DNA of 64,000 bases, from NCBI RefSeq assembly GCF_000619825.1, contig NZ_JHUW01000007.1, positions 372,001-436,000 of the forward strand. Direction: 5' to 3'. Each line of letters starts with the position of its first letter. Positions within the stretch are counted from its first letter, which is position 1. Shown here piece by piece: positions 44,362-60,346 of this stretch. The notes below the pieces were generated by a model. It saw nothing but the letters and a program-made list of their open reading frames with translations. It was not told the DNA's origin and did no database searches. Source of the stretch: Prevotella sp. MA2016. GTDB taxonomy: Bacteria; Bacteroidota; Bacteroidia; Bacteroidales; Bacteroidaceae. A program made the translations under genes and the position numbers.

Positions 44362-44503
44362 ATATAGAAATATTTAAAGTGTAAGATAGGTTTTACAGAT
44401 GAAATGCCGCAAAATCGTTTGCTGTAATATACGAAATTTATTAATTTTAGGTTGCTGTACTAAACTTTTTTGCGATAAATTTGGTTATTCCATTAAGTTT
44501 TTG

Positions 44504-44511
44504 TATTTTTG
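44504..44511 (+). promoter_or_regulatory. -7 promoter box of the AAA+ ATPase gene
   Basis: TATTTTTG, matching TAnnTTTG, 28 bases before the ATG at 44540, inside a 178-base A/T-rich spacer. It suggests independent expression of the ATPase gene within the locus. Confidence 0.5.
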
Positions 44512-44539
44512 CACGTAATAATCTTGAGTATATAAAGGA

Positions 44540-45736
44540 ATGGAAACTCTCTTTAGGAAACATCGGATATTGATATCGCAAGTTAGTATGACTATTGTCC
44601 GCCAAATGATGCATACTGTCAAATGGGAGCGGCAATTAGTGTCAATCCGCGGTTCTCGTGGCGTTGGCAAGACGACACTGATGCGTCAGTATATTCGACA
44701 GAAGTATGGCATAAACGCAGGCGAGGCTCTCTATCTGGTGATGGACAGTATGTATTTTACTAATCATACTCTGCTTGAGGTGGCAGAACGTTTTCATTTG
44801 GTGGGAGGCAAACATTTGTTTCTGGATGAGGTGCACAAATATCCTACTTGGAGTAAGGAAGTGAAGGAGATTATCGACTTATGGCCCGACTTAAAAATTA
44901 CCTTTACTGGCTCGTCGCTGTTACAGATACTGAATGCTGACGCGGACTTGTCTCGTCGTGTACTCAACTATGATATGGCAGGGCTCTCATTCCGTGAATA
45001 TCTGCAATTCTACAAAGGCATTGAGTTGCCTTCCTATTCATTAGAGGAAATATTGAGTAATGCCGACTCCATCTGCCAGAAGGTCTGTGAGGCATGTCGT
45101 CCTCAGGCGCTTTTCGAGGATTATCTGCGAGTAGGATACTATCCTTTCTATGACGGAGATGATCAGGACTACTATAGCCGCATTGAAAATGTGGTCAGTT
45201 TTATCATCGATCAGGAAATGACTCAGTTTTGCGGGGTTGAACCTGCCTATACTCGTAAACTCAAGGCAATGCTTCTCTTTTTGGCCAATAATGTGCCATA
45301 CGATGTCAGCATCGCCAAACTCTCATCTTACCTTGAAATAAACAAAACCACCGTACTGAGTTACCTTGCCAGTATGCAGAAGGCAGAATTACTGAATTTG
45401 CTCTACACTGATAAAAAGTCAGTGACTAAGATGCAAAAACCTGATAAAGTTTATCTTCATAATCCTAACATGCACTATGCTTTGAGTTCGGAGGAGAAGA
45501 TAGGTACGATACGTGAGTGCTTTGTAGTAAATCAATTGTCAGCAAGTCATACCGTAGAATATGGTAAGACACAAGGTGATTTCAAAATAGACGGTAAGAT
45601 AATATTGGAGGTTGGTGGTAAGGATAAGACTTTCGACCAGATAGCAGATATACCCGACTCGTATGTCTTAGCAGACTCAATGGAGTTTCCTATTGGCAAG
45701 AAACTACCTATTTGGATAGTAGGATTCCTCTACTAA
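44540..45736 (+). CDS. AAA+ ATPase with DUF4143 domain
   Basis: A 398-residue protein of the widespread AAA_14/DUF4143 family. Walker A GSRGVGKTT (38-46) and Walker B LFLDEVHKYP (93-102) are intact, followed by FTGSSLL sensor-like residues. A C-terminal winged-helix and nuclease-like DUF4143 region completes it (SYLEINKTTVLSYLASMQKAELL, then FKIDGKIILEVGGKDK). The cellular role is unknown; proposals include DNA-related or toxin-antitoxin-like functions. It has no evident link to glycan synthesis and sits between two paralogous glycosyltransferase genes with its own promoter, so it is probably an insertion. Confidence 0.8.
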   Translation: METLFRKHRILISQVSMTIVRQMMHTVKWERQLVSIRGSRGVGKTTLMRQYIRQKYGINAGEALYLVMDSMYFTNHTLLEVAERFHLVGGKHLFLDEVHKYPTWSKEVKEIIDLWPDLKITFTGSSLLQILNADADLSRRVLNYDMAGLSFREYLQFYKGIELPSYSLEEILSNADSICQKVCEACRPQALFEDYLRVGYYPFYDGDDQDYYSRIENVVSFIIDQEMTQFCGVEPAYTRKLKAMLLFLANNVPYDVSIAKLSSYLEINKTTVLSYLASMQKAELLNLLYTDKKSVTKMQKPDKVYLHNPNMHYALSSEEKIGTIRECFVVNQLSASHTVEYGKTQGDFKIDGKIILEVGGKDKTFDQIADIPDSYVLADSMEFPIGKKLPIWIVGFLY

Positions 45737-45747
45737 AATAGAAACCT

Positions 45748-46683
45748 ATGGATTGCCCATTATTTAGTATTATCATTCCTCATAAAGACATACCGGATCT
45801 GCTGATGCGGTGCTTGAGGTCAATCCCTGTATCTGAGGATATACAGGTGATAGTAGTGGATGACAATAGTGCTGATGCTGATACATATTTGAAAAGATAT
45901 CCAGAACTGTCGCGCCCCTATCTGGAGTTCGTCAGAACGACAAAAGGAGGAGGGGCTGGCTATGCCAGGAATGTCGGGCAGGATCGGGCTAAAGGAAAAT
46001 GGCTGCTGTTTGCCGATGCGGATGACTTCTTTGTTGAAGATATGCATGACATCATCAGCTCATACGCTGATTCGGAAGCAGATGTCATATTCTTCAAGAA
46101 TAAGGCTGTTCTTTCAGATAATATAAACGTAGGATCAAATCGATCTTCTTGGATGAATAGAAAGATTGATCAGTGTTTGAAAGATGGTGATGAATGGCCT
46201 GTAAGATTTAAGTTGTTTGTTCCATGGGCCAAGATGGTAAAAAGGGATTTAGTTGTTAAATACAATATCCGATTTGACGAAGTTGCGTATTCTAATGATG
46301 TATATTTTTCTTTGCTTGTTGGTTATCATGCAGGAATCATCAAGGTTGCAAATATAGCCCTATATGTCGTGACTTTTCGTCCCAAATCATTAAGTGCAGA
46401 ATTTTGTACTAAGCCTGGAGAATTGAAAACAAGGGCAGAAGTGTTTTTCCGAGAAGAAAAATTCTTGATTAGGCATAATATCTGTAGAGTTAGGTCTATG
46501 AGAAAATATTTATTGATAATGTTGAAGAGAGACCATTCTTTATTCAAATATTACTTTTACCAGTTAGATGAATTATATCCATCAAAACTATTGGCATTGC
46601 ATGATATAGGAAAAGGGACATCTCTGCTTACCAAGATCAAGTTGTATTTATATTCATTGCTGATATGGGCAAGGGACTTGTGA
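45748..46683 (+). CDS. GT2 family glycosyltransferase (copy B)
   Basis: A 311-residue paralogue of the gene at 43429 (FSIIIPHKDIPDLLMRCLRS, GGGAGYARNVGQDRAKGKWLLFADADDF). Residues 1-105 differ at only about one in five positions or fewer, while residues 110-311 share only scattered motifs (DEWP, MVKRD, IRFDEV, LYPSKL). The pattern suggests a duplication followed by selection or recombination on the acceptor half. Twelve bases separate it from the ATPase gene stop. Confidence 0.85.
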   Translation: MDCPLFSIIIPHKDIPDLLMRCLRSIPVSEDIQVIVVDDNSADADTYLKRYPELSRPYLEFVRTTKGGGAGYARNVGQDRAKGKWLLFADADDFFVEDMHDIISSYADSEADVIFFKNKAVLSDNINVGSNRSSWMNRKIDQCLKDGDEWPVRFKLFVPWAKMVKRDLVVKYNIRFDEVAYSNDVYFSLLVGYHAGIIKVANIALYVVTFRPKSLSAEFCTKPGELKTRAEVFFREEKFLIRHNICRVRSMRKYLLIMLKRDHSLFKYYFYQLDELYPSKLLALHDIGKGTSLLTKIKLYLYSLLIWARDL

Positions 46684-46716
46684 GTATCTGTTGAAGTAAA
46701 GTTATATAAGCGTAAG

Positions 46717-47703
46717 ATGGAAAACGAACTCCTTCACCCGTTTGTCAGCATCATCGTGCCTGTATATAATACGGCGGAATACGTGGAAGAATGTATTCAG
46801 TCCATCCTGTCGCAGACCTACGAGAATATAGAACTGATTCTTGTGAATGATGGCAGTACGGACGGCTCTGGTGAAATCTGCAAGAAGTATGAACATTTGC
46901 CTCTTGTTCGATATATAGAAATAGAGAACGCAGGTGTTGTAGTTGCAAGGAAACGAGGTGTAGAGGATGCACGTGGCGAATGGATAATGTTTGTAGATTC
47001 TGATGACTATTTACTAAAAGATTGTGTTTTAGAGTTACTATCAATCTCTGAAGGTGTTGATATTGTTATAGGATGCCATACGAGAAGCAAACAACTGATA
47101 GATGCTTTTGATTATTATGATAGAGAAGACTATCTATTCATGCTTACTTGTCGTCGATTTCCAACATATCCTTGGGCTAAACTCTTCAGTGCAGATCTGA
47201 TTAGAAAATGTCAGCTGGCATTTGCATATAACTATCCCGTAAAGGAGGATTTCCTTATGAATTTAGCATTAGCGAGAACTAATGAGAAAAAAGTTGCCGT
47301 ATGGAGGAAACCTGTTTATTTTTACCGCATTCGTATAGACTCAGCCACTCGCAGTCACAATTTTGACCTTGATTCTTATTATGACTTCTGTAATCTTGTA
47401 GATTCTATTGTTGCAGATAGCTTGTCTGAAGAAAAGGAGAAACGGGCTAAGATAGAGGTTCGTATGGATTATTATAATGATTACCTTAAACGTAATGATT
47501 ATGAAGGGAATAAGCGACATCCCTTTGTAAAGGAGATAATTCGCCTTATTAACGAAGATGGAGTCATTCGCCTTTCTGACAGGCTATTATTATCAGTATC
47601 TAACAAGAGATCAATTAAAATGTGCCTCTTCTTGAACAAGTTTATCACTAGGATTGAAAATCCTTCAATAATTATAAAGGATTTCAGTCGATTACATATA
47701 TAA
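46717..47703 (+). CDS. GT2 family glycosyltransferase
   Basis: A 328-residue GT-A fold enzyme (FVSIIVPVYNTAEYVEECIQSIL, VNDGSTDGSGEICKKY, WIMFVDSDDYLL with the DSD metal motif). The C-terminal half contains YPWAKLFSADLI and PVKEDFLMNLAL, typical of capsule glycosyltransferases of the EpsJ/WcaA kind. It starts 33 bases after the previous gene. Base composition from here to about 48770 is distinctly A/T-rich compared with the housekeeping region, as expected for exchanged surface-glycan genes. Confidence 0.83.
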   Translation: MENELLHPFVSIIVPVYNTAEYVEECIQSILSQTYENIELILVNDGSTDGSGEICKKYEHLPLVRYIEIENAGVVVARKRGVEDARGEWIMFVDSDDYLLKDCVLELLSISEGVDIVIGCHTRSKQLIDAFDYYDREDYLFMLTCRRFPTYPWAKLFSADLIRKCQLAFAYNYPVKEDFLMNLALARTNEKKVAVWRKPVYFYRIRIDSATRSHNFDLDSYYDFCNLVDSIVADSLSEEKEKRAKIEVRMDYYNDYLKRNDYEGNKRHPFVKEIIRLINEDGVIRLSDRLLLSVSNKRSIKMCLFLNKFITRIENPSIIIKDFSRLHI

Positions 47704-47757
47704 TTAAACCAGATAAGGATAAGAGAATGGATTTGAATTTGGAATGGTACATAAATC

Positions 47758-48765
47758 ATGGATAAGATTATGAAAACAAAAATAGTATACGCTGTCAGTA
47801 GTGATGAACAGGATATTTATTTAGAACAGACCGTTCTATCTGTATTCTCTTTGAAGCGACATAATCCAGATGCCGTTGTGGAATTCGTCGTAGATGAAAG
47901 GACAGACAAGACGATAGTCGGGAAGCGTGAATTGATTTTGCAATATGTCAATAAAAAGATCGTGGTGGAAGTTCCAGAATCGTATGATAAGAAACAAACT
48001 TCCAGATTCCTAAAAACCAATTTACGTCAGTATATAGATGGAGATTTTCTGTTTATTGACTCAGATACAGTTATTGCAGATAGTCTCGCTGATATTGATT
48101 CTTTTGATGGTGACATTGGGGCAGTAATAAATGAGCATGTACCAATTAGTTTGTACTTTGATAATTATGGGAAAAGTGTTAGGAGATATGCAAAAGAAGA
48201 AGGTTGGCAATGTAATGATACCCTTCCTTATTTTAATAGTGGTGTTATGTTCGTTAGGGATTCGGAAATGAGTCGGCATTTTTATAAAGATTGGCATAAT
48301 GCATGGTTATATAATATATGTAAGTTTGGAAGACATTATGATCAACCACCTTTGGCTTTAGTAAATGAAAAAAATAACTATGTTGTTACTGAACTTCCCG
48401 CAATTTGGAATTGCCAAATATTGAGATATGGCTTACCGTATTTACATCAAGCTAAGATAATTCATTATTTTGCTGCCATGTATAACAAAGATACAATCAT
48501 CTATGCTTTTCGTAAAAAGGCAATTTATGAGGACATCAAAAATAAAGGATATTTGTCAACCGATTTAATCAAACTCATTGATAGAGCGAAAACAGCTTTC
48601 GATAATCCAACTCGACTTTGTACAAAAGAGGAACTAAATGTCCTTTCTGGTGAAATGGCTATGGCTTGTCTGTATCACCCTATAATACTTAATACGCTTA
48701 ATTCATTGTTTAGATTGCTTAGCAGGGTACATGGTTGGTTTATAAGGCCATTTCGAAAGAATTAG
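47758..48765 (+). CDS. GT8-like glycosyltransferase
   Basis: A 335-residue protein with a nucleotide-sugar-binding start (TKIVYAVSSDEQDIYLEQTVLSVFSL) and the DxD metal motif in FLFIDSDTVI (DSD at 101-103). YFNSGVMFVRDS follows, a pattern seen in GT8 galactosyl- or glucosyltransferases and relatives. Acceptor and donor are unknown. Met5 (47770) is an alternative start. The 88 bases after it hold a few short frames but no recognisable gene. Confidence 0.7.
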   Translation: MDKIMKTKIVYAVSSDEQDIYLEQTVLSVFSLKRHNPDAVVEFVVDERTDKTIVGKRELILQYVNKKIVVEVPESYDKKQTSRFLKTNLRQYIDGDFLFIDSDTVIADSLADIDSFDGDIGAVINEHVPISLYFDNYGKSVRRYAKEEGWQCNDTLPYFNSGVMFVRDSEMSRHFYKDWHNAWLYNICKFGRHYDQPPLALVNEKNNYVVTELPAIWNCQILRYGLPYLHQAKIIHYFAAMYNKDTIIYAFRKKAIYEDIKNKGYLSTDLIKLIDRAKTAFDNPTRLCTKEELNVLSGEMAMACLYHPIILNTLNSLFRLLSRVHGWFIRPFRKN

Positions 48766-48858
48766 TCATTGTTTTTTCCCTTCGGCGGTGGTAAGAGAGA
48801 CTGGGCATCCATCGAAAAGTATGCATGATATAAAGAAACTTTTTAAAAAGCATTGAAG

Positions 48859-50100
48859 ATGAATATGAAACAGAGAATATGGAAGATTACAAGGCCAGTA
48901 CTGAGACCTGTGGGAGCAGTGACAATAGTTTGTTTGTTCTACCTGTTGCGCATATTCCCGATAAAGAAGAATAAAGTCTTGGTTTGTGTTTCAGCTGGCA
49001 GGCGCTATGATGACAACCAGAAGTTTATCATGGAAGAGCTTCATAAGCTCATTCCTGATTTGGATATCGTCTGGGTGAAGGATCCCAAATATGAATACGA
49101 ACTGCCAACATGGATGCGACCAGTTAAATGGCGCAGTTGGCATTGGCTGTATGAGTATGCGACGGCTAAGATCTGGACGAACAACCGCTGCGAACCTGAT
49201 TACTTTGTGAAGCGAAAGGGACAGTTATACGTGGAAACATGGCATGGTGGACTGGGCATCAAGAAAGTGTCAGGCGATATCATAGGCGAATATGCTGCAG
49301 GCATAACAAAGACACTCTTCCAGAAGAATGCATCGGATATGGCAGATGTGTATATTTCGAATTCTGACCATCTATCGATTATCTATCGCAGGGCGTTCAA
49401 ATATCATGGGCCAATCTGGAAATGCGGCTATCCGAAGAACGATATGCTGGTGCAGAACAATCCTGAGGAAGGTATGAAGGCTCGTAAGGACTTAGGCATT
49501 CCTTCTGATCATAAAGTGTTGCTCTATGCGCCTACATGGCGACTTCGTTTTACTCAGGAACAGCACATCGACATGAATGTATATGATCTGGATATGGATC
49601 GTTTGAAAAAAACGCTGACGAATAAATTTGGTGGCGAGTGGACGATGCTGATCAGATTCCACCCATCGCTACGCCTCTATGCCAAAGGCTATCAAGAAGC
49701 TCATCCAGATGTGAAGGACGTGACAGACTATCAGGACATGCAGCGGCTACTGATGGCGACAGATGTGATGATTAGTGACTATTCGAGCTGTATCTTCGAT
49801 GCTGCCCTAAGAAGGATTCCCTGTTTTACGTATGCTACAGACTTCGAGCAGTATAAGTATGAAGAGCGTGGCGTGTACTATGAAATGGAGGAACTACCGT
49901 TCCCATACGCCAAGAACAACGACGAACTAGAACAGAACGTAAAGGTTTTCGAGATGGAGGACTATCTGAAGAAGTGGGATGCCTTTACGGTGAGGATGGG
50001 ACTTAACGAGACTGGCCATGCGGCAAGGGACATCGCACAGAAGATGGCAGACTACCTTGATGGCAAAAAGGTGGAATGGCAAAATGATTATCCAATATAA
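48859..50100 (+). CDS. TagF-like CDP-glycerol glycerophosphotransferase family protein
   Basis: A 413-residue single-domain member of the TagB/TagF family, which moves alditol phosphates from CDP-alditols to a growing polymer. Visible motifs are the membrane-associating N-terminus (VTIVCLFYLLRIFPIKKNKVL), ETWHGGLGIKK (His129), SNSDHLS, CGYPKNDML, YAPTWR and DYSSCIFDAALRRIPCF, all in order. A TTG at 48853 is in frame, but the ATG at 48859 is the better start. The neighbouring cytidylyltransferase and epimerase genes suggest that the donor is made locally. Confidence 0.82.
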   Translation: MNMKQRIWKITRPVLRPVGAVTIVCLFYLLRIFPIKKNKVLVCVSAGRRYDDNQKFIMEELHKLIPDLDIVWVKDPKYEYELPTWMRPVKWRSWHWLYEYATAKIWTNNRCEPDYFVKRKGQLYVETWHGGLGIKKVSGDIIGEYAAGITKTLFQKNASDMADVYISNSDHLSIIYRRAFKYHGPIWKCGYPKNDMLVQNNPEEGMKARKDLGIPSDHKVLLYAPTWRLRFTQEQHIDMNVYDLDMDRLKKTLTNKFGGEWTMLIRFHPSLRLYAKGYQEAHPDVKDVTDYQDMQRLLMATDVMISDYSSCIFDAALRRIPCFTYATDFEQYKYEERGVYYEMEELPFPYAKNNDELEQNVKVFEMEDYLKKWDAFTVRMGLNETGHAARDIAQKMADYLDGKKVEWQNDYPI

Positions 50101-50113
50101 AAACCAAATAGTT

Positions 50114-50830
50114 ATGAACATAGCTGTGATTTTTGCAGGAGGGCGAGGGGACAGACTCCATAGTCATAGTCGGCCCAAGCAGTTTTTTGAGTTTCGAGGG
50201 AAACCTATCGTGGTCTATACCATCGAGGTGTTTCAGCATATCCAGGAAGTTGATGCCATCGTGGTGGCTTGTCTCGAAGACTGGATACCTTATCTGCGTC
50301 GTCAGGTGGAAAAATATGATCTAAATAAAGTCATAGATATCGTACCTGGTGGCAGGAAAGGACAGGGCTCCATCTACAATGGACTCGTATGTGCCAAGCA
50401 ACATTTCCCAGAAAACTCATTAGTGCTGATACACGACGGTGTGCGCCCCTTGGCGATGGAGAAGACCATTATTGAATGTATTGAAGTAGCCAAGGAGAAA
50501 GGGAATAGTATCGTTTGTGTACCTGCGATGGAGACTATCGTCATGAAGAAAGCTGATGGTTCGCTGGAGGTGCCAGACCGAGACTCAGTTCTGATGGTCA
50601 GAGCGCCCCAATGTTTTGTGCTGAAAGATGTGATGGAGGCTCATCAGAAGGCATTAGCAGAGGGGAAACATGATTTTGTGGATACTTGTTCGATGATGAA
50701 CCATTATGGTTATGAGTTGCATACGATTATAGGGACAGCTGAGAATATCAAGATTACGACACCTGCTGACTACTTTATGTTCAAGGCCATCATTGAAGCG
50801 AGGGAAGAAAGTGCTGTATTTGGGTTTTAA
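50114..50830 (+). CDS. IspD/TarI-family cytidylyltransferase
   Basis: A 238-residue nucleotidyltransferase with the CTP-binding motif VIFAGGRGDRLHSHSRPKQFFEF and the later HDGVRPL and VRAPQCF segments. The family includes IspD (isoprenoid pathway) and TarI/Bcs1 (CDP-ribitol synthesis). Its position between a TagF-like transferase and an NAD-dependent epimerase/reductase favours making a CDP-alditol for the polymer. The start is the ATG at 50114, 13 bases after the previous stop. Confidence 0.8.
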   Translation: MNIAVIFAGGRGDRLHSHSRPKQFFEFRGKPIVVYTIEVFQHIQEVDAIVVACLEDWIPYLRRQVEKYDLNKVIDIVPGGRKGQGSIYNGLVCAKQHFPENSLVLIHDGVRPLAMEKTIIECIEVAKEKGNSIVCVPAMETIVMKKADGSLEVPDRDSVLMVRAPQCFVLKDVMEAHQKALAEGKHDFVDTCSMMNHYGYELHTIIGTAENIKITTPADYFMFKAIIEAREESAVFGF

Positions 50831-50843
50831 GTATGCTACCACT

Positions 50844-51902
50844 ATGAACAAGGATATTATCCAAGAGGATTTACAGAGGATGAGTGAGGCCAATCTGCCT
50901 TGGCGAGAACTTGACGGAAAGACCGTCTTCGTTACTGGAGCTACAGGTATGCTGGCCTCGTATGTCACCTGGCTGTTGCTCTATCTGCATGAGCATGCAG
51001 GCATCAACGTCTCTGTAGTGGCACTTTGCAGGAATCGCCAGAAAGCAGAACAATATTTTGGCTCGTATGTAGGGAAGTCTTATTTCCGTCTGCTGATACA
51101 GGATGTATGCAATCCTATCGCCTATGAGGGACAGGTGGACTATGTATTCCATCTGGCAGGGAACGCCAGTCCTCATTTTATTAATACGGATCCTGTTGGT
51201 ATTATGAAGTGTAATCTGCAGGGGACTATCAATGTGCTGGAACTGGCTCGGCATCATGACGTTAAACGGGTTTTGTTTGCATCGACACGAGAAGTTTATG
51301 GAAAGAATGAGGATGCAGAGCAGCTCAATGAGTCGGCTTTTGGCACTCTCGATCCTTTGGACGACAGGTCGTGCTATCCTGAAAGCAAGCGGGCTGCAGA
51401 ATCGCTTCTGAAGAGTTATGCTCTGCAATATGGTGTACTGTTTAATACCGTTAGAATTGCCCATTCTTATGGACCAACTATGAATCTGGAGAATGACGGG
51501 CGAGTGATGGCAGATTTGATTTCAGACGTGGTAGCTGGCAGAAGCATTGTACTGAAAAGTACTGGCACCGCTGTTCGCGCTTTCCTTTATGTAACCGATG
51601 CCGTTATAGGAATGTTTACGGTACTCTTCCTTGGTGAACCATCAACGGCCTATAATCTTGCCAACGAAACAGAGCCGATCTCCATCAAGGATTTAGCTCT
51701 TTTGCTAACCTCATTCAGGAAAGACATCGACTTGAAATTAGTTTATGATACGCGGCAGCAAGACAATACTAAGGGTTACTGCACCTATAAACGAATTGCC
51801 CTTGATACCAGAAAATCAGAGGCTCTAGGATGGAGCCCCCATATAAGTCTTAAGGAAGGGTTAACCCGTACTTTTATAAAAACGCAAATCGGTATTTTGT
51901 GA
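50844..51902 (+). CDS. NAD-dependent epimerase/dehydratase family protein
   Basis: A 352-residue short-chain dehydrogenase (extended type): NAD-binding TGATGMLASY (31-40), catalytic Tyr/Lys in SCYPESKRAAE, and a DVTDAV-like RAFLYVTDAVIGMF region. It may reduce or epimerise a sugar used with the adjacent cytidylyltransferase; a TarJ-like reductase role is possible but TarJ belongs to another family. The frame can extend to 50793, overlapping the previous gene, but ATG 50844 fits the fold. It is the last gene of the first polysaccharide locus. Confidence 0.78.
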   Translation: MNKDIIQEDLQRMSEANLPWRELDGKTVFVTGATGMLASYVTWLLLYLHEHAGINVSVVALCRNRQKAEQYFGSYVGKSYFRLLIQDVCNPIAYEGQVDYVFHLAGNASPHFINTDPVGIMKCNLQGTINVLELARHHDVKRVLFASTREVYGKNEDAEQLNESAFGTLDPLDDRSCYPESKRAAESLLKSYALQYGVLFNTVRIAHSYGPTMNLENDGRVMADLISDVVAGRSIVLKSTGTAVRAFLYVTDAVIGMFTVLFLGEPSTAYNLANETEPISIKDLALLLTSFRKDIDLKLVYDTRQQDNTKGYCTYKRIALDTRKSEALGWSPHISLKEGLTRTFIKTQIGIL

Positions 51903-52012
51903 GTTTCTTGACGAACGTAAAATGTACTTACCTTGAGGAAATTGTCGATGTTGTCTTGCCATATTCAAATAATTCGATTTCCTCACCTAATTCCCTGTTG
52001 TTCTTAATAAAA

Positions 52013-52048
52013 CCGCCCGGGAGTCCTCATACTGTGGCTACCGGGCGG
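52013..52048. terminator. GC-rich bidirectional terminator between the two polysaccharide loci
   Basis: CCGCCCGG (52013-52020) and CCGGGCGG (52041-52048) form an 8-bp perfect stem with a 20-base loop. CTTTT follows on the plus strand and TTTTATT on the minus strand. It can end the first locus and the LytTR remnant that faces it. Confidence 0.65.
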
Positions 52049-52066
52049 CTTTTCTGTGTCTTAATG

Positions 52067-52261
52067 TCACTGCTGTTTAGCCTTAATGAACACACCTTCC
52101 ATACGCTGGCGGTAGTCGCCAGTGGCATACAGCGGTTTTTTGCCAATGTTGTAGCAATTCTTGGGCAAGCCAAGCGGCAAAGCCGAGCGCCTCTCAAATC
52201 CGTCAATGCAATCCAGATTGACAATCTCCGACCTGTTGATGCGCACAAAGTTCTCTTCAGA
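52067..52261 (-). pseudogene. fragment of a LytTR DNA-binding domain protein
   Basis: A 64-codon minus-strand frame with no start codon after its upstream stop. It reads ENFVRINRSEIVNLDCIDGF, which matches the FVRxHRSxIVN core of LytTR domains, then continues to a normal-looking stop beside the GC-rich terminator. The N-terminal half of the domain and any receiver domain are absent. LytTR regulators control surface and quorum functions in many bacteria. The fragment is probably left from a rearrangement at the boundary of the two loci. Confidence 0.55.
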
Positions 52262-52312: not shown

Positions 52313-52446
52313 CAGCCGTAAAAGTTTAAGCGACGATGATGGCAAACAAGAATCTGAAATGCCATACAAAGAAATTAGAAGATATATACTTAGTAAATTA
52401 GTAAATAAGATAAAAAAGACGATTATGGAGAATAAAGAAAAACTTT

Positions 52447-52698
52447 GTGCTGCGCGACGTAGTCGGCAAGAAAGCGATCTTTTGTGTAGGTATCAAAGCC
52501 ATCGACTTTCGCAAGATAATAACTTTGAACGAAAGTGGCGAGTGGGTGTGGCAAGAAGCTATGGCGCAGGGTAACTTCACAGCGGAATCCCTGACAGCCA
52601 GAGTCTGTGAGGAATACGACGTGACAGCCGAAGTGGCCCAATCTTATGTGACGGACTTCCTCGAACAGTTGGACAAAGAAGGAATGATAGAAAAGTAG
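52447..52698 (+). CDS. PqqD-family protein (start region disrupted)
   Basis: An 83-residue protein from a GTG codon (VLRDVVGKKAIFCVGIKAIDFRKI, then TLNESGEWVWQ). PqqD proteins bind precursor peptides for modifying enzymes (RRE fold), but related copies stand alone in Bacteroidota glycan loci. The reading frame upstream gives RIKKNFVLRDVV, the expected N-terminus, but its ATG (52425) is one base out of frame (ATG-G-AGA-ATA-AAG). Either one extra base disrupted the start, or translation begins at GTG and lacks about seven residues. It is followed 118 bases later by upxY. Confidence 0.7.
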   Translation: MLRDVVGKKAIFCVGIKAIDFRKIITLNESGEWVWQEAMAQGNFTAESLTARVCEEYDVTAEVAQSYVTDFLEQLDKEGMIEK

Positions 52699-52815
52699 AA
52701 ACAGATATCGGGCAGGTAGTGCCCTGGCTGGTGGTCTATTTGCAACTAAAAGACAGGTCTTGTTATTTTTTGGAGCTTGAGCAGGAATCATAGAACAACT
52801 GAAAATCAGAGTGAT
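52699..52815 (+). other. pqqD-upxY spacer with possible attenuator
   Basis: The spacer holds GGGCA-GGTAG-TGCCC (a 5-bp hairpin) and, 35 bases on, AAGACAGGTCTTGTTATTTTTT, a small inverted repeat followed by a T run. The stems are short; an attenuation site upstream of the antiterminator gene is possible but unproven. Confidence 0.3.
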
Positions 52816-53418
52816 ATGATGATAGCAGATAAAGAAGGGATTTCTTTGGTACACGACACAACGATGTGTGGTGACCCCAAGGTTTGGTTTCCAATGCGGG
52901 TGACTTATTCGCGTGAGCTAAAGATTAAGGCCGAGTTGGACCGACTGAAGATTGAGAACTTTATTCCAATGACCTATAAATTGCTGGATGCTGATACAGA
53001 GCGTCCACATCGTGAGTTGGTACCCGCCATCAACAATCTCATTTTCGTACACTCTACACAGGAGCGGATCAGTTATCTGAAGCAGAGGAACAAGGTACTG
53101 GAGCCGTTGCGATACATACTTGATCAAACAGCTCAAGAGGCTCACACCATTATGACAGTGAAGGATAGAGACATGGGAAACTTTATGCGCGTGGCCTCTA
53201 TGACTGACGACAGTGTGATGTTCTTGGATGACGAGTGCGTTATAGGGAAGGAAGGCAAGCATGTGCAGATTATGGGCGGCATCTTTGAGGGCGTGGAAGG
53301 AGTGATACGCCGAGTGAAGCGTTGCAAGAGAGTCGTGGTAGAATTGGAAGGGATTGCCAGTGTAGCGATTGCTTATGTCCCTGCTGCGCTCCTTAAGGAA
53401 ATAAAGAGAAAACAGTAG
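52816..53418 (+). CDS. upxY: UpxY-family transcription antiterminator
   Basis: A protein of about 200 residues of the NusG-like UpxY family. These load onto RNA polymerase at the leader of a capsule operon and prevent early termination. Visible: the NGN-like start (KVWFPMRVTYSRELKIKAELDRLKIENFIPM), the central PAINNLIFVHSTQERI, and the C-terminal KOW-like region (GKHVQIMGGIFEGVEGVIRRVKRCKRVVVEL). In Bacteroides each upxY lies near the start of its own polysaccharide operon, as here. The frame opens at 52777; ATGs at 52816/52819 are preferred. Confidence 0.88.
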   Translation: MMIADKEGISLVHDTTMCGDPKVWFPMRVTYSRELKIKAELDRLKIENFIPMTYKLLDADTERPHRELVPAINNLIFVHSTQERISYLKQRNKVLEPLRYILDQTAQEAHTIMTVKDRDMGNFMRVASMTDDSVMFLDDECVIGKEGKHVQIMGGIFEGVEGVIRRVKRCKRVVVELEGIASVAIAYVPAALLKEIKRKQ

Positions 53419-53460
53419 AGGAGGTAATGACTTATATCAATTTAGTGAATCGTTCAGTAT

Positions 53461-54561
53461 ATGAATACGAGCAATAAGACGGAACAACACCAGGAACAGT
53501 TTTTCCAGCTGCTGCGCCTGTCGATGGGAGTGACAGAGCAGAAAGACTTCGTGGCAACTGATGAGGACTGGCAGTGGCTGCATGAAGAGACAGATCGTCA
53601 GTCGCTGATAGGTGTTATCTATGGCGCGATGATTCAGCTGCCTGCCAATCAGCAGCCACCCGTGGACCTCTTAATTAAATGGATATATCAGGCAGATGTC
53701 ATCAATGGCAAGAACGAACTGCTCAATCAGGAGTCTGCGCGACTGACAAAGCTGTTCGGCGATGCCGGGCGACGGACAGCCATCCTGAAAGGTCAGGCCA
53801 ATGCGCGACTCTATCCCGATAAGTTTTTGCGCCAGCCAGGGGATATCGACATCTGGGTGGAAGGCGGACGAGAGAACGTGCTGTCATTGCTTAAGACGGA
53901 GCCATTTGCCTCAATGATGGGCGATAAGGAACTCAAACCGGAATACCATCATGTGCATTTGCCTACTAGTGACAAAAGGGTGATTGTGGAGGTGCATTTT
54001 CTCCCCTCGTCGGGCAACTTCAACCCCTTCACTAATCGTCGGCTGCAGCGATGTCTCAATATGGAGCTTATAAATACTGAGAGCGTGGAGGAGGGTTTCA
54101 ACGTGCCGTCTGTGAGGTTCGCTCTCGCGATGCAGTTGTCTCATATCCAGCACCACTTCTTCCGTGGTGGCATTGGGCTGCGACAAGTATGTGACTATTA
54201 TATGCTGCTGAAGAACTCCACCGAAAAGGATCGCTGGATGGTGGCAGATTATCTGACGGCCTTCGGGCTGCGACAGATAGCCGGGGCACTGATGTGGGTG
54301 CTCGGCGAGGTGTTCCAGATGGATCGCGCGCTGATACTCTGCAAGCCCGACAGTTATTACGGCGAATGCATGCTGCGTGAGATCATGGAAGGAGGTAACT
54401 TCGGACACCATGCCCAGCGACAGCATCAAAGAATGTGGCGACGGCTGTTCGCAGGCAAGTTGCGGCAACTGCGACTGATGCGGTTCAATTTCTGGGAGGT
54501 ATTCTGGATGGAGATGCAATTTTGTAAGGTTGTCTTCCAAACGCTGCTCAAGTGCTCCTGA
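53461..54561 (+). CDS. nucleotidyltransferase-fold protein (NTP_transf_5/PF14907 type)
   Basis: A 366-residue protein with a helical N-terminus and a nucleotidyltransferase-like core (ILKGQANARLYPDKFLRQPGDIDIWV, with the G-D-I-D metal motif), then EVHFLPSSGNFNPF. A helical C-terminal half (SVRFALAMQLSHIQHHFFRGGIGLRQVCDYYML) completes it. Relatives occur in glycan and peptide-modification clusters together with PqqD-like proteins, but the reaction is not known. It follows upxY by 42 bases and precedes the Wzy gene by 40. Confidence 0.7.
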   Translation: MNTSNKTEQHQEQFFQLLRLSMGVTEQKDFVATDEDWQWLHEETDRQSLIGVIYGAMIQLPANQQPPVDLLIKWIYQADVINGKNELLNQESARLTKLFGDAGRRTAILKGQANARLYPDKFLRQPGDIDIWVEGGRENVLSLLKTEPFASMMGDKELKPEYHHVHLPTSDKRVIVEVHFLPSSGNFNPFTNRRLQRCLNMELINTESVEEGFNVPSVRFALAMQLSHIQHHFFRGGIGLRQVCDYYMLLKNSTEKDRWMVADYLTAFGLRQIAGALMWVLGEVFQMDRALILCKPDSYYGECMLREIMEGGNFGHHAQRQHQRMWRRLFAGKLRQLRLMRFNFWEVFWMEMQFCKVVFQTLLKCS

Positions 54562-54601
54562 AGGAAATAATTAGAACGGAAAAAATAAAATAGTTCCAAT
54601 T

Positions 54602-55858
54602 ATGGACACTACAGATGATAACATTTTGTTAGCCCTCTATACATTATTTTGGGTAATCTCTTTTATAGTGTATCACTACCGAAACCGACACATTGACGGT
54701 GGTAGTGCCGTTATGGCCAGTTATATCGTTTACTGTTTTTTTTCATTCATCACTTTAAACGATGAGTTCTTCGATGACACATACGAACATCTGAGCCTAT
54801 TCCCTTTTATCTATCTGTATGTGATGTTAATGTTAGCACTATCACCTGCAATCAAGTTACATCGTAGTCCTGTCATAAAAATAAAAGATCCTCACTCAAA
54901 GGCGTTGCTTATCCCGTGCTATATTGCCATCCTATGCATTTGTGTGCAGATACCGTCTATTTTGTCAAATTTCAATAGCAATTTTGTTAGTATCCTTACT
55001 GATAGCGATGCAGGAAAAGATGCTTATCTGGAGGCATTCGAGAATTCCAAAAGCGCGGGAAGCGCAATCAGAAACCTACCTGCTGTATTATATAACATGC
55101 TATATGACTGCACCGTTTTTATTTTCTTTTTTCTCCTCACACGAAAAGATAAAAACATCAATTTTCTCGTCCTTCTGTTTCTCTCCATTATCATCGGAAT
55201 GATAATACCTGTCATGGACGGACGGCGAGGGTCGGTTATCAAATGCGGCTTAACTATTTTAGCGGGCTATATGCTCTTCCGCCAATTCATCTCTATAAAA
55301 ATTGATCGCATCATAAAAATTTCAGGCATTATCATAACCGCCATAGTGGCTATACCCATTATAGCGATTACCATCAGCCGATTCAGCGACAGAAAAAATG
55401 GTACCGATACAAGCGGTTATGTATATTGGTATATAGGCCAAGCCAACATCTATTTCAATAACTATGCACTTGATGCCGGTGGCACAAGAAATGGCGACCG
55501 CACTTTCAATATGGTGAAAAGGCTTCTATCTTCCGACACACCGAAGAACTATACGGAAAGACGTGAAAAATACAAAAAATTAAAAATTGATGATGACTTT
55601 TACACAACATTTGTAGGCGATTTTGTACTTGACTTCGGCCCTTTGAGTGCTTTTATTATATTTGTTGCGTTCAACAGTTGGGCTATCATCCAAATACGAC
55701 CACGTTGCGGTATTATCAAACTACATCAGCTCCTTCTTGTCTATTTTGCCTTGTGCGTCAGTCTTCAGGGAGGAATGACACTCTTCATGTATTCAGACAC
55801 CGGCAACCTGTCCCTTGGCGCGATGATGTTGCTGTATATATGGCTTAGGAACCATTAG
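54602..55858 (+). CDS. wzy: O-antigen/capsule repeat-unit polymerase (Wzy-like)
   Basis: A 418-residue polytopic membrane protein with about 10 hydrophobic segments and a large external loop (about 265-345, GTDTSGYVYWYIGQANIYFNNY to DDDFYTTFVGDFVLD), as in Wzy and related oligosaccharide polymerases. These join flipped repeat units in the periplasm. Sequence conservation in the family is low, so the call leans on topology and on the neighbouring flippase gene. Confidence 0.75.
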   Translation: MDTTDDNILLALYTLFWVISFIVYHYRNRHIDGGSAVMASYIVYCFFSFITLNDEFFDDTYEHLSLFPFIYLYVMLMLALSPAIKLHRSPVIKIKDPHSKALLIPCYIAILCICVQIPSILSNFNSNFVSILTDSDAGKDAYLEAFENSKSAGSAIRNLPAVLYNMLYDCTVFIFFFLLTRKDKNINFLVLLFLSIIIGMIIPVMDGRRGSVIKCGLTILAGYMLFRQFISIKIDRIIKISGIIITAIVAIPIIAITISRFSDRKNGTDTSGYVYWYIGQANIYFNNYALDAGGTRNGDRTFNMVKRLLSSDTPKNYTERREKYKKLKIDDDFYTTFVGDFVLDFGPLSAFIIFVAFNSWAIIQIRPRCGIIKLHQLLLVYFALCVSLQGGMTLFMYSDTGNLSLGAMMLLYIWLRNH

Positions 55859-55874
55859 GCCTTACTAAAAAAAA

Positions 55875-57407
55875 ATGACTCCAAAGTCTAAACGCATCGC
55901 ATCAAATAGCTTAATGCTGTTTGTAAGGATGATGGTTATCACAGCCATCAACCTATATGCTGTACGCCTGCTACTACGAGACCTAGGACAAGAAGACTAT
56001 GGCACTTTCAATGCCGTTGCAGGTGTCGTGCTGGCCAGTTCCTTCATTACAACCACACTGGCAGTCAGTATTCAGCGTTTCTACTCATATACGCTGGGAA
56101 AAGGAGAAAACAACCAGCTTTCAACCATCTTTTCAGCTAGCATAAATATCATCTTGGTATTGTCTATAGCACTGCTTTTTATCTTTGAAACTATTGGCCT
56201 TTGGTTTGTCAACAACGAATTGTCAATTCCACCAGAACGTCTTGTCGCAGCCAATTGGGTATTTCATTTCTCGCTGATCACATTATGGTTTGGCTTACTG
56301 CAACTGCCCTTTACTGCAGCGATCTTTGCACAAGAGGAGATGGGGGCGTTCGCCCTCATTTCCCTAACCGAATGTATGCTACGTCTCGGCGTGATATTTT
56401 TTATCGGCATCACCGCCATGGATGGCTTGATTTTCTACAGTATTGGGCTTAGTGCCGTAGCTGTGATTATATTCTTACTCTATGCATTTATCGTGCATCG
56501 CCGCTACCCGGAATACAAATATTGCAGGAAAATACCCAAAGAAACTTATCGTTCACTGCTGGCCTTTTCCGGATGGTCTATGTATAGTTCTCTAGCCGCA
56601 GTAGGTTTGACGCAAGGCATCACCATTTTGCTCTATATGTTTTTTGGCCCGATAGCCACGGCAGCGTACGCTATTGCGCAACAAGTGTTTCACGCATTCA
56701 CAGCACTAAGTAACAGCATTGCCGTTGCCTTCCGCCCTGCGATGGTGAAATCTTTTGCAGAGAAAGACTACATTTCTCTCAACAAGATGTTCAGCGCCAA
56801 CAATAAATTCATACTCTATCTGCTCCTGATGGTTGCAATACCCCTTATATTGGAATTGCGCACCATTTTCGATTGGTGGTTAGGCAATGTTTCAGAAGAA
56901 GCCATCATCTATACCCGACTTACCATCATATATATGCTGTGCTTCTCCATGCATAACCCTGTAACAACTATTGTCCATTCCACAGGACAACTTAAATATT
57001 ATAGTTTATTCGTTGACAGTATAGTCATTTTATGTCTTCCTGCCACATGGCTAGCCTTCCACCTAGGAGCATCTTCCGAAATAAGCATTATACTAATGAT
57101 AGCGATGTGTATAATATCTCATCTTGTCAGACTTGTCATTTTACGCCGTCAATATCCCTCTTTTAGCTATGCCCCTTATCTTTCGGAAATCATTCTGCGG
57201 GGACTATTCGTAGCTGTATGTACCTTCTTTGTCGTTTACCTTGTTCACCAAGCATTACATCCAGGCATTGTCAGGCTAGTCACTGTTTTTGCATCTTCAT
57301 GCATTACGATGCTTCTTACAGTCTATTTCTTAGGACTTTCTGCTAAAGAACAACAAACGCTATGCCATTTCTTAATGCAACGAATGAATAAATATTCAGA
57401 AAACTAA
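55875..57407 (+). CDS. wzx: polysaccharide flippase (Wzx, MOP superfamily)
   Basis: A 510-residue membrane protein with about 14 transmembrane helices. The start (SKRIASNSLMLFVRMMVITAINLYAVRLLLRDLGQEDYGTFNAVAG) is the standard MOP-family Wzx N-terminus. It flips undecaprenyl-linked repeat units across the inner membrane for polymerisation by Wzy. It lies 16 bases after wzy and one base before the acetyltransferase gene. Confidence 0.88.
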   Translation: MTPKSKRIASNSLMLFVRMMVITAINLYAVRLLLRDLGQEDYGTFNAVAGVVLASSFITTTLAVSIQRFYSYTLGKGENNQLSTIFSASINIILVLSIALLFIFETIGLWFVNNELSIPPERLVAANWVFHFSLITLWFGLLQLPFTAAIFAQEEMGAFALISLTECMLRLGVIFFIGITAMDGLIFYSIGLSAVAVIIFLLYAFIVHRRYPEYKYCRKIPKETYRSLLAFSGWSMYSSLAAVGLTQGITILLYMFFGPIATAAYAIAQQVFHAFTALSNSIAVAFRPAMVKSFAEKDYISLNKMFSANNKFILYLLLMVAIPLILELRTIFDWWLGNVSEEAIIYTRLTIIYMLCFSMHNPVTTIVHSTGQLKYYSLFVDSIVILCLPATWLAFHLGASSEISIILMIAMCIISHLVRLVILRRQYPSFSYAPYLSEIILRGLFVAVCTFFVVYLVHQALHPGIVRLVTVFASSCITMLLTVYFLGLSAKEQQTLCHFLMQRMNKYSEN

Positions 57408-57408
57408 T

Positions 57409-57972
57409 ATGTCAAGAATCATCAACTACTTCTTTATCAGAATCTATACACTTTTCTTACGTCCACGCTTTGCCCATTTGGGAAAGGGTGCTCATATAGG
57501 ATGGAAGGCTCTGAGACTGGAAGGTCTTCAGTATATATCAGTAGGCGACAAAACATTCATTGCTTCAGGCGTACAACTTACAGCTTGGGACAGCCACAAC
57601 GGCAATAGATATAACCCATCTATCACCATTGGTAACTATTGTGCTATACGTGAAAATTGTCATATTACTGCTATTAATAGCATTGCCATTGGCAATCATC
57701 TCCTAACAGGCACCAACGTGCTTATTACCGACAATAGCCATGGGCAGAGCATTCGCGAACACATGAGTCTGCCTTTCACAGAGCGCCCGCTGTACAGCAA
57801 AGGACCTGTTACCATCGGCAATCATGTATGGCTGGGAAACAACGTCTGCGTCATGCCAGGAGTGACCATCGGCGACGGAGCAATAATCGGAGCCAATAGC
57901 GTTGTTACCCATAATATTCCTGCATACGCTGTTGCAGCTGGCATACCGGCGAAAGTAATCAAGCAATTATAG
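57409..57972 (+). CDS. hexapeptide-repeat acetyltransferase
   Basis: A 187-residue left-handed beta-helix enzyme of the WbbJ/maltose O-acetyltransferase kind. Hexapeptide repeats run from SVGDKTFIASGVQL to PVTIGNHVWLGNNVCVMPGVTIGDGAIIGANSVVTHNIPAYAVAAGIPAKVI. It would O-acetylate a sugar of the repeat unit or its nucleotide-linked precursor. It lies one base after wzx. Confidence 0.85.
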   Translation: MSRIINYFFIRIYTLFLRPRFAHLGKGAHIGWKALRLEGLQYISVGDKTFIASGVQLTAWDSHNGNRYNPSITIGNYCAIRENCHITAINSIAIGNHLLTGTNVLITDNSHGQSIREHMSLPFTERPLYSKGPVTIGNHVWLGNNVCVMPGVTIGDGAIIGANSVVTHNIPAYAVAAGIPAKVIKQL

Positions 57973-57985
57973 TATTATTAAAGAT

Positions 57986-59131
57986 ATGAAACCAAGAATC
58001 ATAGGACTATATCTACCACAATACCATCCCATCCCCGAAAACGACGAGTGGTGGGGGAAAGGATTCACGGAATGGAATAACGTGGTGAAAGCAAAGCCAC
58101 TGTTCCGCGGGCATTATCAGCCCCACCTCCCAGCCGACCTGGGCTTTTACGACCTGCGACTGCCCGAGGTGCGCGAGCAACAGGCAGAATTAGCGCGTGA
58201 GGCAGGATTAGAGGGGTTTTGCTACTACCATTACTGGTTTGGCAACGGCAAGCAATTGCTACAACGTCCGTTCGAGGAAGTGCTGGCCAGCGGCAAACCT
58301 GACTTCCCTTTCTGCCTCTGCTGGGCCAATCACAACTGGACCAGCAAGACCTGGGAGAAGGGCAGCAGCTTGCGCCACGACACCATGATTATGAAAATGG
58401 AATACTCGCGTGAAGACTACATTAGCCACTTCAACTATTTGCTTCCAGCCTTCCGCGATTCTCGTTACATTACCATTGATGGGAAACCGCTGTTTGCAGT
58501 GTGGGTGCCAAAAGGTATTCCCGATTGTCGGGAGTTTATTGACCTTTGGCAAAAACTGGCACGCGAAAATGGCCTGAAAGGAATACACTTTGTGGGGCAG
58601 ACCGACAACACGGGTAAGGCGCTCTCTGGGAAAAAAGCCAACTATTACTCTGCCGACATGGCAAAGGATTATTATAAGTCCGTGCTTGACATGGGGTTCG
58701 ATGCAGTTATGTCACAAGGTTATCGCAGAGCCGTTGCCTTGGCACAGGGCAGAGCAAAGATGATGCTGAAACTGCTGTCGTTCATTTCCTTCATGCCAAC
58801 GTACTCAAAGATAGACTATGGTCGCCTGATGGATAACTACTATGTAGAGGAAGACCGCTGGGAAAATGTCTACCCTACGCTGTTGCCTCAGTGGGACCGT
58901 ACGCCAAGGGCAGGTTCAAAGACGGAAATCGTCACGGGTACTTCTCCCGAGAAATTCCAGCACTACACAGAGCAGGCCATCCGACTCATTGCTAACAAGC
59001 AGCCAGAACATCAGATCCTATTCTTGAAAGCCTGGAACGAGTGGGGCGAAGGCGACTATGTGGAGCCAGACGAGAAATTTGGACATGGCTGGCTTCAGGC
59101 AATCAGGAACGCTATTGATAAAAACGGTTAA
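57986..59131 (+). CDS. GH99-like domain protein (WbsX family)
   Basis: A 381-residue protein with the WbsX start IGLYLPQYHPIPENDEWWGKGFTEWNNVVKA and the internal FCLCWANHNWTSKTW, PLFAVWVPKGIP and ILFLKAWNEWGEGDYVEPD segments. The fold is like family 99 glycoside hydrolases, but WbsX proteins in O-antigen clusters may act as glycosyltransferases or chain modifiers. The function is unproven. No signal peptide is visible, so it is cytoplasmic. Its stop overlaps the next start (TAATG). Confidence 0.82.
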   Translation: MKPRIIGLYLPQYHPIPENDEWWGKGFTEWNNVVKAKPLFRGHYQPHLPADLGFYDLRLPEVREQQAELAREAGLEGFCYYHYWFGNGKQLLQRPFEEVLASGKPDFPFCLCWANHNWTSKTWEKGSSLRHDTMIMKMEYSREDYISHFNYLLPAFRDSRYITIDGKPLFAVWVPKGIPDCREFIDLWQKLARENGLKGIHFVGQTDNTGKALSGKKANYYSADMAKDYYKSVLDMGFDAVMSQGYRRAVALAQGRAKMMLKLLSFISFMPTYSKIDYGRLMDNYYVEEDRWENVYPTLLPQWDRTPRAGSKTEIVTGTSPEKFQHYTEQAIRLIANKQPEHQILFLKAWNEWGEGDYVEPDEKFGHGWLQAIRNAIDKNG

Positions 59132-60195
59132 TGATGAGTAGCAATAACAACAGGCTCTTGGTCGTAGGTCCACTCCCTTGTGAGAAGCATAACTGTCAGT
59201 GGGGCGGTGCGACGGTGCTGATGAAGAACTTCCATGATTATCTGCTCGAGAAAGGCATAGGCCATCGTTTCGTGCAAACCAACAGGTATGTTAATCCCCG
59301 ATCATTGGGACTTCGTCCTCGCGCCAACCAATTTTATTTCATTGCCAAATTTATCACTTCACTGCCTTGGTGCGATACGGTCATGTTCAATTTTTCCGAC
59401 CATGGCACGGTAAACATGTTTCCATTTCTTTCACGAATAGCTCACAGGATGGGCAAGCGGGTCGTATTGCGTAAGTTTGGCGGTTCGTTTGACATCTATT
59501 TGCAAACTGTGCCAAACAGGAAGAAACATCGGGTTATAGAAGCAATCCAAGCAACAGACATAATTTTTCTGGAGACACAAGCCAGCATCTCCCATATAAA
59601 GACATTGATTGGTGATACAGATAAAATACACTGGTTTCCCAATGTCCGCAAGGCTGCATCGCAACGCAGAATGCCCAAAGCGTTCTCCAAACGGCTGGTA
59701 TTTATGTCGCATGTTTCTAATGAAAAAGGGATGGGCGACCTATTGGATGCTTTCGCTTTACTGCCGTCAGACTATCAGTTAGACATCTACGGTGCTATCA
59801 AGGATAAATTCTATGAGCATTTCGACTGGGTTGCCCATCGTGTTCGTTACAATGGAGAAATCCCCTCGACAGAAGTGACATTAAAATTGGCGCAATATGA
59901 CCTCCTACTCCTACCCTCTTATCGTGAAGGTTATCCTGGTATCATCATTGAGGCTCTGTCTGTGGGCATACCTGTAGTTTCTACCCGTGTGGGAGGAATT
60001 CCTGAGATTATAGAGTGTGAACATAATGGATTGCTCGTAGAATGTCACCAGCCAGTAGAATTAGCTAAGGCGATACGTGCTTTCGAAACTATAGATTATA
60101 CTGCTTATTGCAACAATGCCTATCAGACATTTCAGGAGCATTTTGAATCAGACCGTACAAACGAACACATATTGTCTTTACTGACCACAAACTAA
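59131..60195 (+). CDS. GT4 family glycosyltransferase
   Basis: A 354-residue GT-B fold enzyme. The N-terminal acceptor domain starts RLLVVGPLPCEKHNCQWGGATVLMKNF. The donor-binding end is SYREGYPGIIIEALSVGIPVVSTRVGGIPEII, with the E-x7-E pair of GT4 enzymes. It adds a sugar to the repeat unit at the cytoplasmic face. It overlaps the WbsX gene stop by one base. Confidence 0.85.
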   Translation: MMSSNNNRLLVVGPLPCEKHNCQWGGATVLMKNFHDYLLEKGIGHRFVQTNRYVNPRSLGLRPRANQFYFIAKFITSLPWCDTVMFNFSDHGTVNMFPFLSRIAHRMGKRVVLRKFGGSFDIYLQTVPNRKKHRVIEAIQATDIIFLETQASISHIKTLIGDTDKIHWFPNVRKAASQRRMPKAFSKRLVFMSHVSNEKGMGDLLDAFALLPSDYQLDIYGAIKDKFYEHFDWVAHRVRYNGEIPSTEVTLKLAQYDLLLLPSYREGYPGIIIEALSVGIPVVSTRVGGIPEIIECEHNGLLVECHQPVELAKAIRAFETIDYTAYCNNAYQTFQEHFESDRTNEHILSLLTTN

Positions 60196-60202
60196 AAGTA
60201 AT

Positions 60203-60346
60203 ATGCTTATACATTGGTATCGTCTCAGTCATTGGCTATGGAAACATCATGTGCCAGTACTACCAAAACTATTTTGGCGCTTACAGTATCTACTATTTAA
60301 TTGTTCCGTTCCTGCTAGTTGTACCTTAAAGGAAGATATAGCATAA
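60203..60346 (+). pseudogene. N-terminal stub of a serine O-acetyltransferase-like gene
   Basis: A 47-codon frame (MLIHWYRLSHWLWKHHVP, LFWRLQYLLFNCSVPASC) closely resembles the N-terminal helices of CysE-like acetyltransferases in capsule clusters. It stops where the beta-helix part should begin (TLKEDIA then TAA) and is followed directly by the heparinase-like gene (TAAATG). The catalytic domain is absent, so it is most likely a truncated gene, unless it is a short functional peptide. Confidence 0.5.

Follow-up and report, generated by a model that had tools for sequence, protein, structure and literature searches.

A PqqD–UpxY–nucleotidyltransferase trio heading a Wzy operon as a probable recombination mosaic of a peptide-modification cassette and a capsule locus

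The three genes heading a Wzy-type capsule operon in a Prevotella-like genome encode a PqqD/RRE-like protein, an UpxY antiterminator and a PF14907 nucleotidyltransferase (NTP5). The trio is probably a recombination mosaic of a peptide-modification cassette and an UpxY–Wzy capsule operon, not a conserved module. The mosaic would owe its existence to chance recombination. A stand-alone PqqD atop a polysaccharide operon is explained if a peptide cassette and a capsule locus recombined gene by gene, and the tempting but misleading notion of a capsule control module is removed. Moreover, the analysis brought to light a cassette that is widespread in rumen Prevotella and Fibrobacter and whose leader peptide can be recognised, and the role of PF14907 proteins beside HprK-like kinases became testable, with a defined candidate substrate.

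The window, i.e., the whole 64-kb stretch of DNA analysed, is G000:C6:372001-436000 of a 3.38 Mb genome in 12 contigs. The features of the trio and its surroundings are given below, where L180 denotes a cassette locus of Prevotella sp. RGIG6979 and L194 the capsule locus of the congeneric genome G563.

52009–52253, minus strand: LytTR remnant, the 3' tail of a degenerate regulator gene, with a bidirectional hairpin terminator, marking the left edge of the former cassette (73% nucleotide identity to L180 3418–3635)
52275–52351, plus strand: probable cassette promoter TAACTTTG and apparent former kinase start ATGATGGCAAACAAGA, now the foremost promoter of the operon (local alignment to the L180 kinase promoter and start)
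52425–52427, plus strand: original ATG of PqqD, no longer in frame (compared with L185, L180, L017, L016, L027 and others)
52447–52698, plus strand: PqqD/RRE-like gene, apparently eroded, with a GTG start (PF05402, 2.6e-13; 78% nucleotide and 64% amino acid identity to L180 PqqD)
52738–53418, plus strand: UpxY antiterminator with its own leader, a capsule-derived block (NF033644; 86% nucleotide identity to L194 8367–9039)
53461–54561, plus strand: NTP5, a PF14907 pol-beta-type nucleotidyltransferase of the cassette clade (PF14907, 3e-37; 72% nucleotide identity to L180 NTP5)
54589–61158, plus strand: capsule block of Wzy, Wzx, acyltransferase and WbsX, followed by GT4 and a heparinase-like gene (alignment to L194)

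In the profile searches, PqqD scored 50.5 bits against PF05402 (cut-off 23.4), UpxY 133.7 bits against NF033644 (cut-off 100), NTP5 129 bits against PF14907 (cut-off 31.2) and the Wzy protein after the trio 93.7 bits against TIGR04370 (cut-off 40). The sequence-only reading that the first three genes head a Wzy operon was borne out, since all of them lie there with scores above the cut-offs. UpxY, most likely starting at ATG 52816, sits near the front of the capsule operon, and the Wzy locus comes next. Past the heparinase-like gene, the operon continues with WecB and a UDP-sugar dehydrogenase, and the initiating sugar-phosphate transferase lies beyond the window. The same reading found no radical SAM or peptide gene, and none was detected near the trio; likewise, no lasso gene or leader-like peptide was present there. 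Its statement that the trio precedes any glycan gene holds for the Wzy operon only, because a glycan/ABC-export locus lies upstream at 41.3–51.9 kb on the same strand. By eye, that locus (41259–51902) contained an ABC exporter (Wzm/Wzt-like), glycosyltransferases, a CDP-glycerol-transferase-like protein, an IspD/TarI-like cytidylyltransferase and a sugar epimerase, and its glycan is possibly of the polyol-phosphate type. An AAA-type ATPase of the DUF4143 kind (44540–45736, by eye) is inserted among its glycosyltransferase genes.

The cassette parent is represented by L180 (JAFYDA010000031.1, the same contig as L220), a rumen metagenome contig of only 3.9 kb with the gene order LytTR<>HprK-like kinase–S26 peptidase–PqqD–NTP5–ABC. 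Three collinear blocks were shared with the window: 52009–52253 (73%), 52421–52699 (PqqD, 78%) and 53474–54528 (NTP5, 72%). The first block matches L180 3418–3635, the 3' portion of a LytTR gene that is intact there (109 aa) and divergent from the HprK-like kinase. Both loci have PqqD followed by NTP5 with the LytTR tail upstream, and protein identities were 64% for PqqD and 66–67% for NTP5. In contrast to the window, the RGIG6979 cassette has an HprK-like kinase, an S26 peptidase, an ABC exporter and an intact PqqD start, and it has neither UpxY nor capsule genes. The interval between the LytTR-tail and PqqD blocks measured 168 bp in the window versus 1.6 kb, holding kinase and peptidase, in L180. 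Co-occurrence with serine-kinase genes missing here, which the sequence-only reading had named as a point against its own proposal, is the pattern of the closest relative, and kinase and peptidase were deleted in the window. The stretch TAACTTTGCAGCCGTAAAA...ATGATGGCAAACAAGA aligned to the L180 kinase promoter and start in a short, weak match that was equalled by 2 of 300 shuffles. Judged from this alignment, the old kinase promoter and start seem to survive. A scan for sigma-70 type promoters gave nothing useful, a null result that is expected for Bacteroidota. A remnant of the S26 gene directly upstream of PqqD was considered and rejected, as the S26 profile scored 0.7 bits there and shuffles did equally well.

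The capsule parent resembles L194, in which UpxY, Wzy, Wzx, acyltransferase and WbsX occur in the same order as in the window. The UpxY block (52738–53410) showed 86% nucleotide identity to L194, and UpxY itself 84% amino acid identity. The stretch from Wzy to WbsX (54589–59123) was 91% identical in nucleotides to L194 12589–17119, and a further stretch was 92% identical to L194 18189–19000; the GT4 gene between these two matching stretches differs from that of L194. For UpxY and the proteins from Wzy onward, identities were 81–96% and dS values 0.19–0.54. The position between UpxY and Wzy that NTP5 occupies in the window is taken by Wza and Wzc in L194, which lacks both PqqD and NTP5. A Wza homologue (50% identity) is present elsewhere in the window's genome. 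Hence, the three collinear L180 blocks together with the L194 blocks point to recombination as the source of the order PqqD, UpxY, NTP5, Wzy. Kinase, peptidase and exporter would have dropped out of the ancestral cassette, and the capsule operon would have joined in, with UpxY placed between PqqD and NTP5 and Wzy onward placed after NTP5. The capsule operon would now be read from the old cassette promoter, with transcription extended by UpxY.

The two cassette-derived genes have fared differently, with much drift at conserved sites in PqqD and almost none in NTP5. The PqqD start reads ATG-G-AGAATAAAG in the window (in full, ATGGAGAATAAAG) versus ATGAGAATAAAG in relatives, which amounts to a 1-bp insertion of G. 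Because of the extra G, the ancestral ATG at 52425 no longer shares the PqqD frame, and the best remaining start is GTG 52447. A programmed frameshift at this point was rejected because no slippery site fitted and a plain 1-bp insertion was simpler. PqqD deviated at 10 of 28 conserved columns, the worst of 31 proteins (0–8 in the 30 relatives, median 0). Its score above the PF05402 cut-off and the winged-helix RRE topology of its model place it in that family; the model comprised three strands followed by three helices (E-E-E-H-H-H) with a pLDDT of 79 and was weak at residues 11–20. The gene nevertheless lacks a sound start, and the protein departs from the conserved residues of its own subfamily. 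From its sequence, PqqD looks eroded and decaying, and it is probably no longer made from the normal start. Against the mosaic with an eroded PqqD stand the frame, which is open although without an ATG, and the pairwise dN/dS of 0.29 to L180 (0.08 for PqqD in the comparison pair L180–L027), although most of that divergence may predate the fusion.

NTP5 deviated at 3 of 85 conserved columns (0–11 in other members) and retained the invariant KGQ...GDID...E.H, including the active-site GDID. Its C-terminus is about 12 residues shorter than in relatives, at the junction with Wzy. Pairwise dN/dS to L180 was 0.20, a weak measure with synonymous sites near saturation. Moreover, much of the divergence of PqqD and NTP5 may predate the fusion, so dN/dS is no proof of present function. 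Relaxed selection on NTP5, suggested by its long tree branch, was set aside since the same value, though weak and near-saturated at synonymous sites, is ordinary. The NTP5 model (pLDDT 96.6) adopted a pol-beta-type nucleotidyltransferase fold. In the Foldseek search, 5uvd was the sole match with E < 0.001, and VIA-align gave Z scores of 11.8 for MenT1 (173 residues, 3.0 Å), 10.2 for 5uvd and 10.0 for ANT(2''). The best fold matches were MenT1, a Paracoccidioides nucleotidyltransferase-like protein and ANT(2''), and the substrate is not deducible from the common fold. No solved structure matched NTP5 at the sequence level, and PADLOC returned no match for PqqD or NTP5. According to its profile score, active site and tree placement, NTP5 belongs to the cassette-clade PF14907 proteins. 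Sequence and model together suggest that NTP5 has probably kept its enzymatic activity and is a passenger of the capsule operon, not a contributor to the capsule.

The recurrence of the trio was assessed in 60 congeneric genomes, among which 45 had PF14907, 50 had PqqD and 53 had an NF033644-type match (39 over the cut-off). PqqD adjoined UpxY on the same strand in one of the 60, namely, in the window only, and no PqqD or NTP5 was found near UpxY in the 15 closest UpxY loci. UpxY comes from a separate capsule lineage, and its inclusion in one module with the other two genes was not upheld. The pairing of PqqD with PF14907 does recur, so that the lack of recurrence named by the sequence-only reading as a refutation does not apply: the two genes are neighbours in numerous loci of Prevotella, Bacteroidales and Fibrobacter. 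However, the loci that share the pair are peptide cassettes containing an HprK-like kinase and an S26-type peptidase, not capsule loci, contrary to the polysaccharide-control module that had been proposed. Among the 29 closest PqqD relatives listed, all 29 lay near a gene for an HprK-like kinase and/or an S26/S24-type peptidase; one was about 3 kb from these genes, the rest adjoined them, and an ABC exporter was usually next. The closest NTP5 relatives (about 41–67% identity) had the order NTP5-HprK-S26-PqqD-ABC or HprK-S26-PqqD-NTP5-ABC. In the genome-wide scan, one or more of kinase, peptidase or PqqD lay within 10 kb in at least 50 of 63 cassette-clade NTP5 loci. Among 17 more distant NTP5 loci, none had kinase, peptidase or PqqD and 10 had glycosyltransferase-type genes; because contigs are incomplete, the counts for both sets are lower bounds. 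In a tree of 134 NTP5 proteins, built by a quick method with SH-aLRT support and without bootstrap, the window NTP5 grouped in a 57-member clade (SH-aLRT 99) that otherwise holds 47 cassette members and 9 proteins encoded beside neither gene kind. No glycan-locus protein is included, and the sister of the window NTP5 was L180 NTP5 (SH-aLRT 98). NTP5–PqqD pairs without a kinase occurred in L186, L187 and L189–L191, all from Prevotella, so a reduced pair can persist. Two further arrangements were observed: HprK-like–radical SAM–PqqD–PF14907 in another congeneric genome (L020, 7.2–11 kb), and a conserved Prevotella locus of rpoD-type sigma factor, small protein, HprK-like kinase, S26 and PqqD (L023, L024, L025, L026), which is apparently single-copy.

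Small ORFs with the leader motif Y-x-KP-x-M-x-VV-x-L ... LLxGS or LLxAS accompany the cassette. Such an ORF stood directly upstream of NTP5 in 14 of the 56 cassette-clade loci with upstream room, and these 14 span Prevotella, other Bacteroidales and Fibrobacter. Over the cassette-clade loci, the motif matched 21 times versus once in reversed and never in shuffled sequences, and it was absent from the glycan-clade NTP5 loci. Since the motif was picked after examples had been seen, the controls outweigh the match count. Peptides directly before NTP5 were found in L182/L223, L209/L254, L190, L016/L231, L250, L252, L260, L268, L271, L275, L279 and L280, with differing cores; that of L223 is MKKRAYKKPSMRVVELQHRTCLLQASGTPPNEIPDYDDWME. 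The L223 set and that of Segatella baroniae B14 (L234) are examples of complete cassettes. No Pfam or NCBIfam model covers them. The cassette relatives thus carry a common-leader peptide gene beside the enzymes, as expected of a RiPP precursor; the window locus does not, and no ORF with the motif was found in the 64 kb. Together, the leader peptide, a PqqD-type leader binder, a kinase-like protein, a peptidase and an exporter make up a RiPP-like anatomy. In such a system, PqqD would bind a small peptide by its KPxMxVVxL leader, phosphorylation of this peptide by the kinase would follow, and NTP5 would attach a nucleotide or sugar to the residue so phosphorylated. Removal of the leader after LLxGS/AS would fall to the peptidase, and export of the product to the ABC protein. 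The order of this chemistry, phosphorylation and then transfer, was borrowed from pseudomycoidin, for which knock-outs demonstrated that PsmK phosphorylates the C-terminal Ser and that PsmN puts hexoses on the phosphorylated Ser, with a nucleotidylation step not excluded (PMC9266682).

The window's own genome has an HprK-S26-PqqD-ABC cassette without NTP5 (C6 near 342 kb, L013), 82 kb from the trio, and two leader-type peptides, MKKKVYIKPSMHVVELRHQACLLQAS.. and MKKKVYKKPEMQVVILQHQANLLVGS..:

L300 1428–1550 = G000:C6:333133-333255: leader-type peptide
L301 1401–1547 = G000:C8 near 201.2 kb: leader-type peptide

The C6 peptide is 7 kb from the exporter gene of the L013 cassette. Both peptides directly follow a large protein ending in GWYDMSG..KL..KPT.KG.YI.NG.KV..K, and a similar ending precedes the L016 peptide. 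A second cassette of this genome (L014, 5.7–8.6 kb; G000:C6 near 232–235 kb) comprises HprK-like and S26-like proteins, a 444-aa protein and PqqD; the 444-aa protein has a CxxxCxxC motif and resembles radical SAM/SPASM enzymes. L027 has a set like that of L014, plus a Cys-rich peptide, MEVKKKFEKPQMKVVKLKPAGMVCGTSCPTKSSCVCDGDCPWHGDW.

These loci bear on a tentative proposal that is compatible with a mosaic origin, namely, that NTP5, perhaps with PqqD, works in trans as the missing transferase for the distant L013 cassette and the leader-type peptides and is co-expressed with the capsule. The presence of that cassette and of both peptides, the conservation of NTP5 and the kinase-less pairs elsewhere are consistent with it. 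However, NTP5 is absent from the surroundings of many HprK-S26-PqqD-ABC cassettes, and L013 may therefore not be short of one; nothing directly connects the trio with L013, and the drift of PqqD argues against its taking part. Recruitment of NTP5, with or without PqqD, to modify or regulate the capsule, with NTP5 perhaps attaching a phosphate-linked substituent to the glycan, is unlikely. Glycan loci of Prevotella often contain other PF14907 proteins next to initiating transferases, FKRP, a glycan phosphotransferase, was among the weak fold matches, and NTP5 is intact and takes the place of Wza–Wzc without upsetting the operon. Nevertheless, the window NTP5 lies outside the glycan-locus clade, the trio occurs nowhere else in the survey, PqqD shows erosion, and relatives of the capsule locus lack both genes. 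Direct capsule modification by NTP5 is possible, with nothing in the analysis to support it, and no result favoured the suggestion that capsule synthesis is protein-primed or regulated by nucleotidylation.

An assembly chimera of a capsule locus and a peptide cassette is highly improbable. Three breakpoints in 2 kb are unusual, but the region belongs to a single 442-kb contig of a 12-contig genome with 99.7% completeness, and the blocks are of single-gene size and joined in operon order. A 1-bp insertion and a lost NTP5 tail are atypical of joining artefacts, and the window copies are 22–28% diverged from L180 and therefore not stray L180 reads. Under the recombination mosaic, expression of the capsule operon now most likely depends on the old cassette promoter and UpxY, with PqqD in decay and NTP5 still active but deprived of local partners. 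A wider reading holds both that the cassette is an undescribed RiPP-like family of rumen Bacteroidota and Fibrobacterota, with phosphorylation and then nucleotidyl or sugar transfer onto the peptide, and that the transferase here has passed to the control of the capsule operon, so that capsule expression and peptide modification in trans are linked; this combination is rather doubtful. Rumen Prevotella and Fibrobacter commonly carry the cassette, which has apparently not been described: in the literature searched, mostly outside subscription journals, no paper was found on it or on PqqD paired with UpxY, a Bacteroides capsule or PF14907.

Among known systems, HPr-rel-A (TIGR04352/TIGR04353) and SynChlorMet (TIGR04249/TIGR04248) also have a stand-alone PqqD adjoining an HprK-like kinase, whereas the cassette scored far below their curated cut-offs. 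The kinase of a relative gave 22.9 bits against HprK_rel_A, which needs 200, and the window locus has no kinase; the window PqqD gave 23.0 bits against PqqD_rel_X, which needs 35, and the locus is therefore not of the HPr-rel-A type. The lasso PqqD model scored 30.8 bits on the window PqqD versus a required 80. In 10 genomes, strong matches to the lasso cyclase PF00733 were full-length proteins away from the cassettes, no match to the B2 protease PF13471 exceeded the cut-off, and one likely lasso locus (G378:C26) was on another contig than the cassette. The cassette was accordingly rejected as a lasso-peptide system, with no cyclase adjoining it and no B2-type protease over the cut-off in these genomes. 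The lasso tailoring systems of paeninodin and pseudomycoidin (PadeK/PsmK, PsmN) share with it a PqqD-type leader binder, an HprK-like kinase, a nucleotidyltransferase homologue and an ABC exporter, all of which act on a peptide (PMC9266682). The cassette differs from them in having no lasso cyclase or B2 transglutaminase-type protease and in using an S26-type peptidase and another leader type instead. It is a variant of the known peptide systems that combine a kinase, an RRE and a nucleotidyltransferase.
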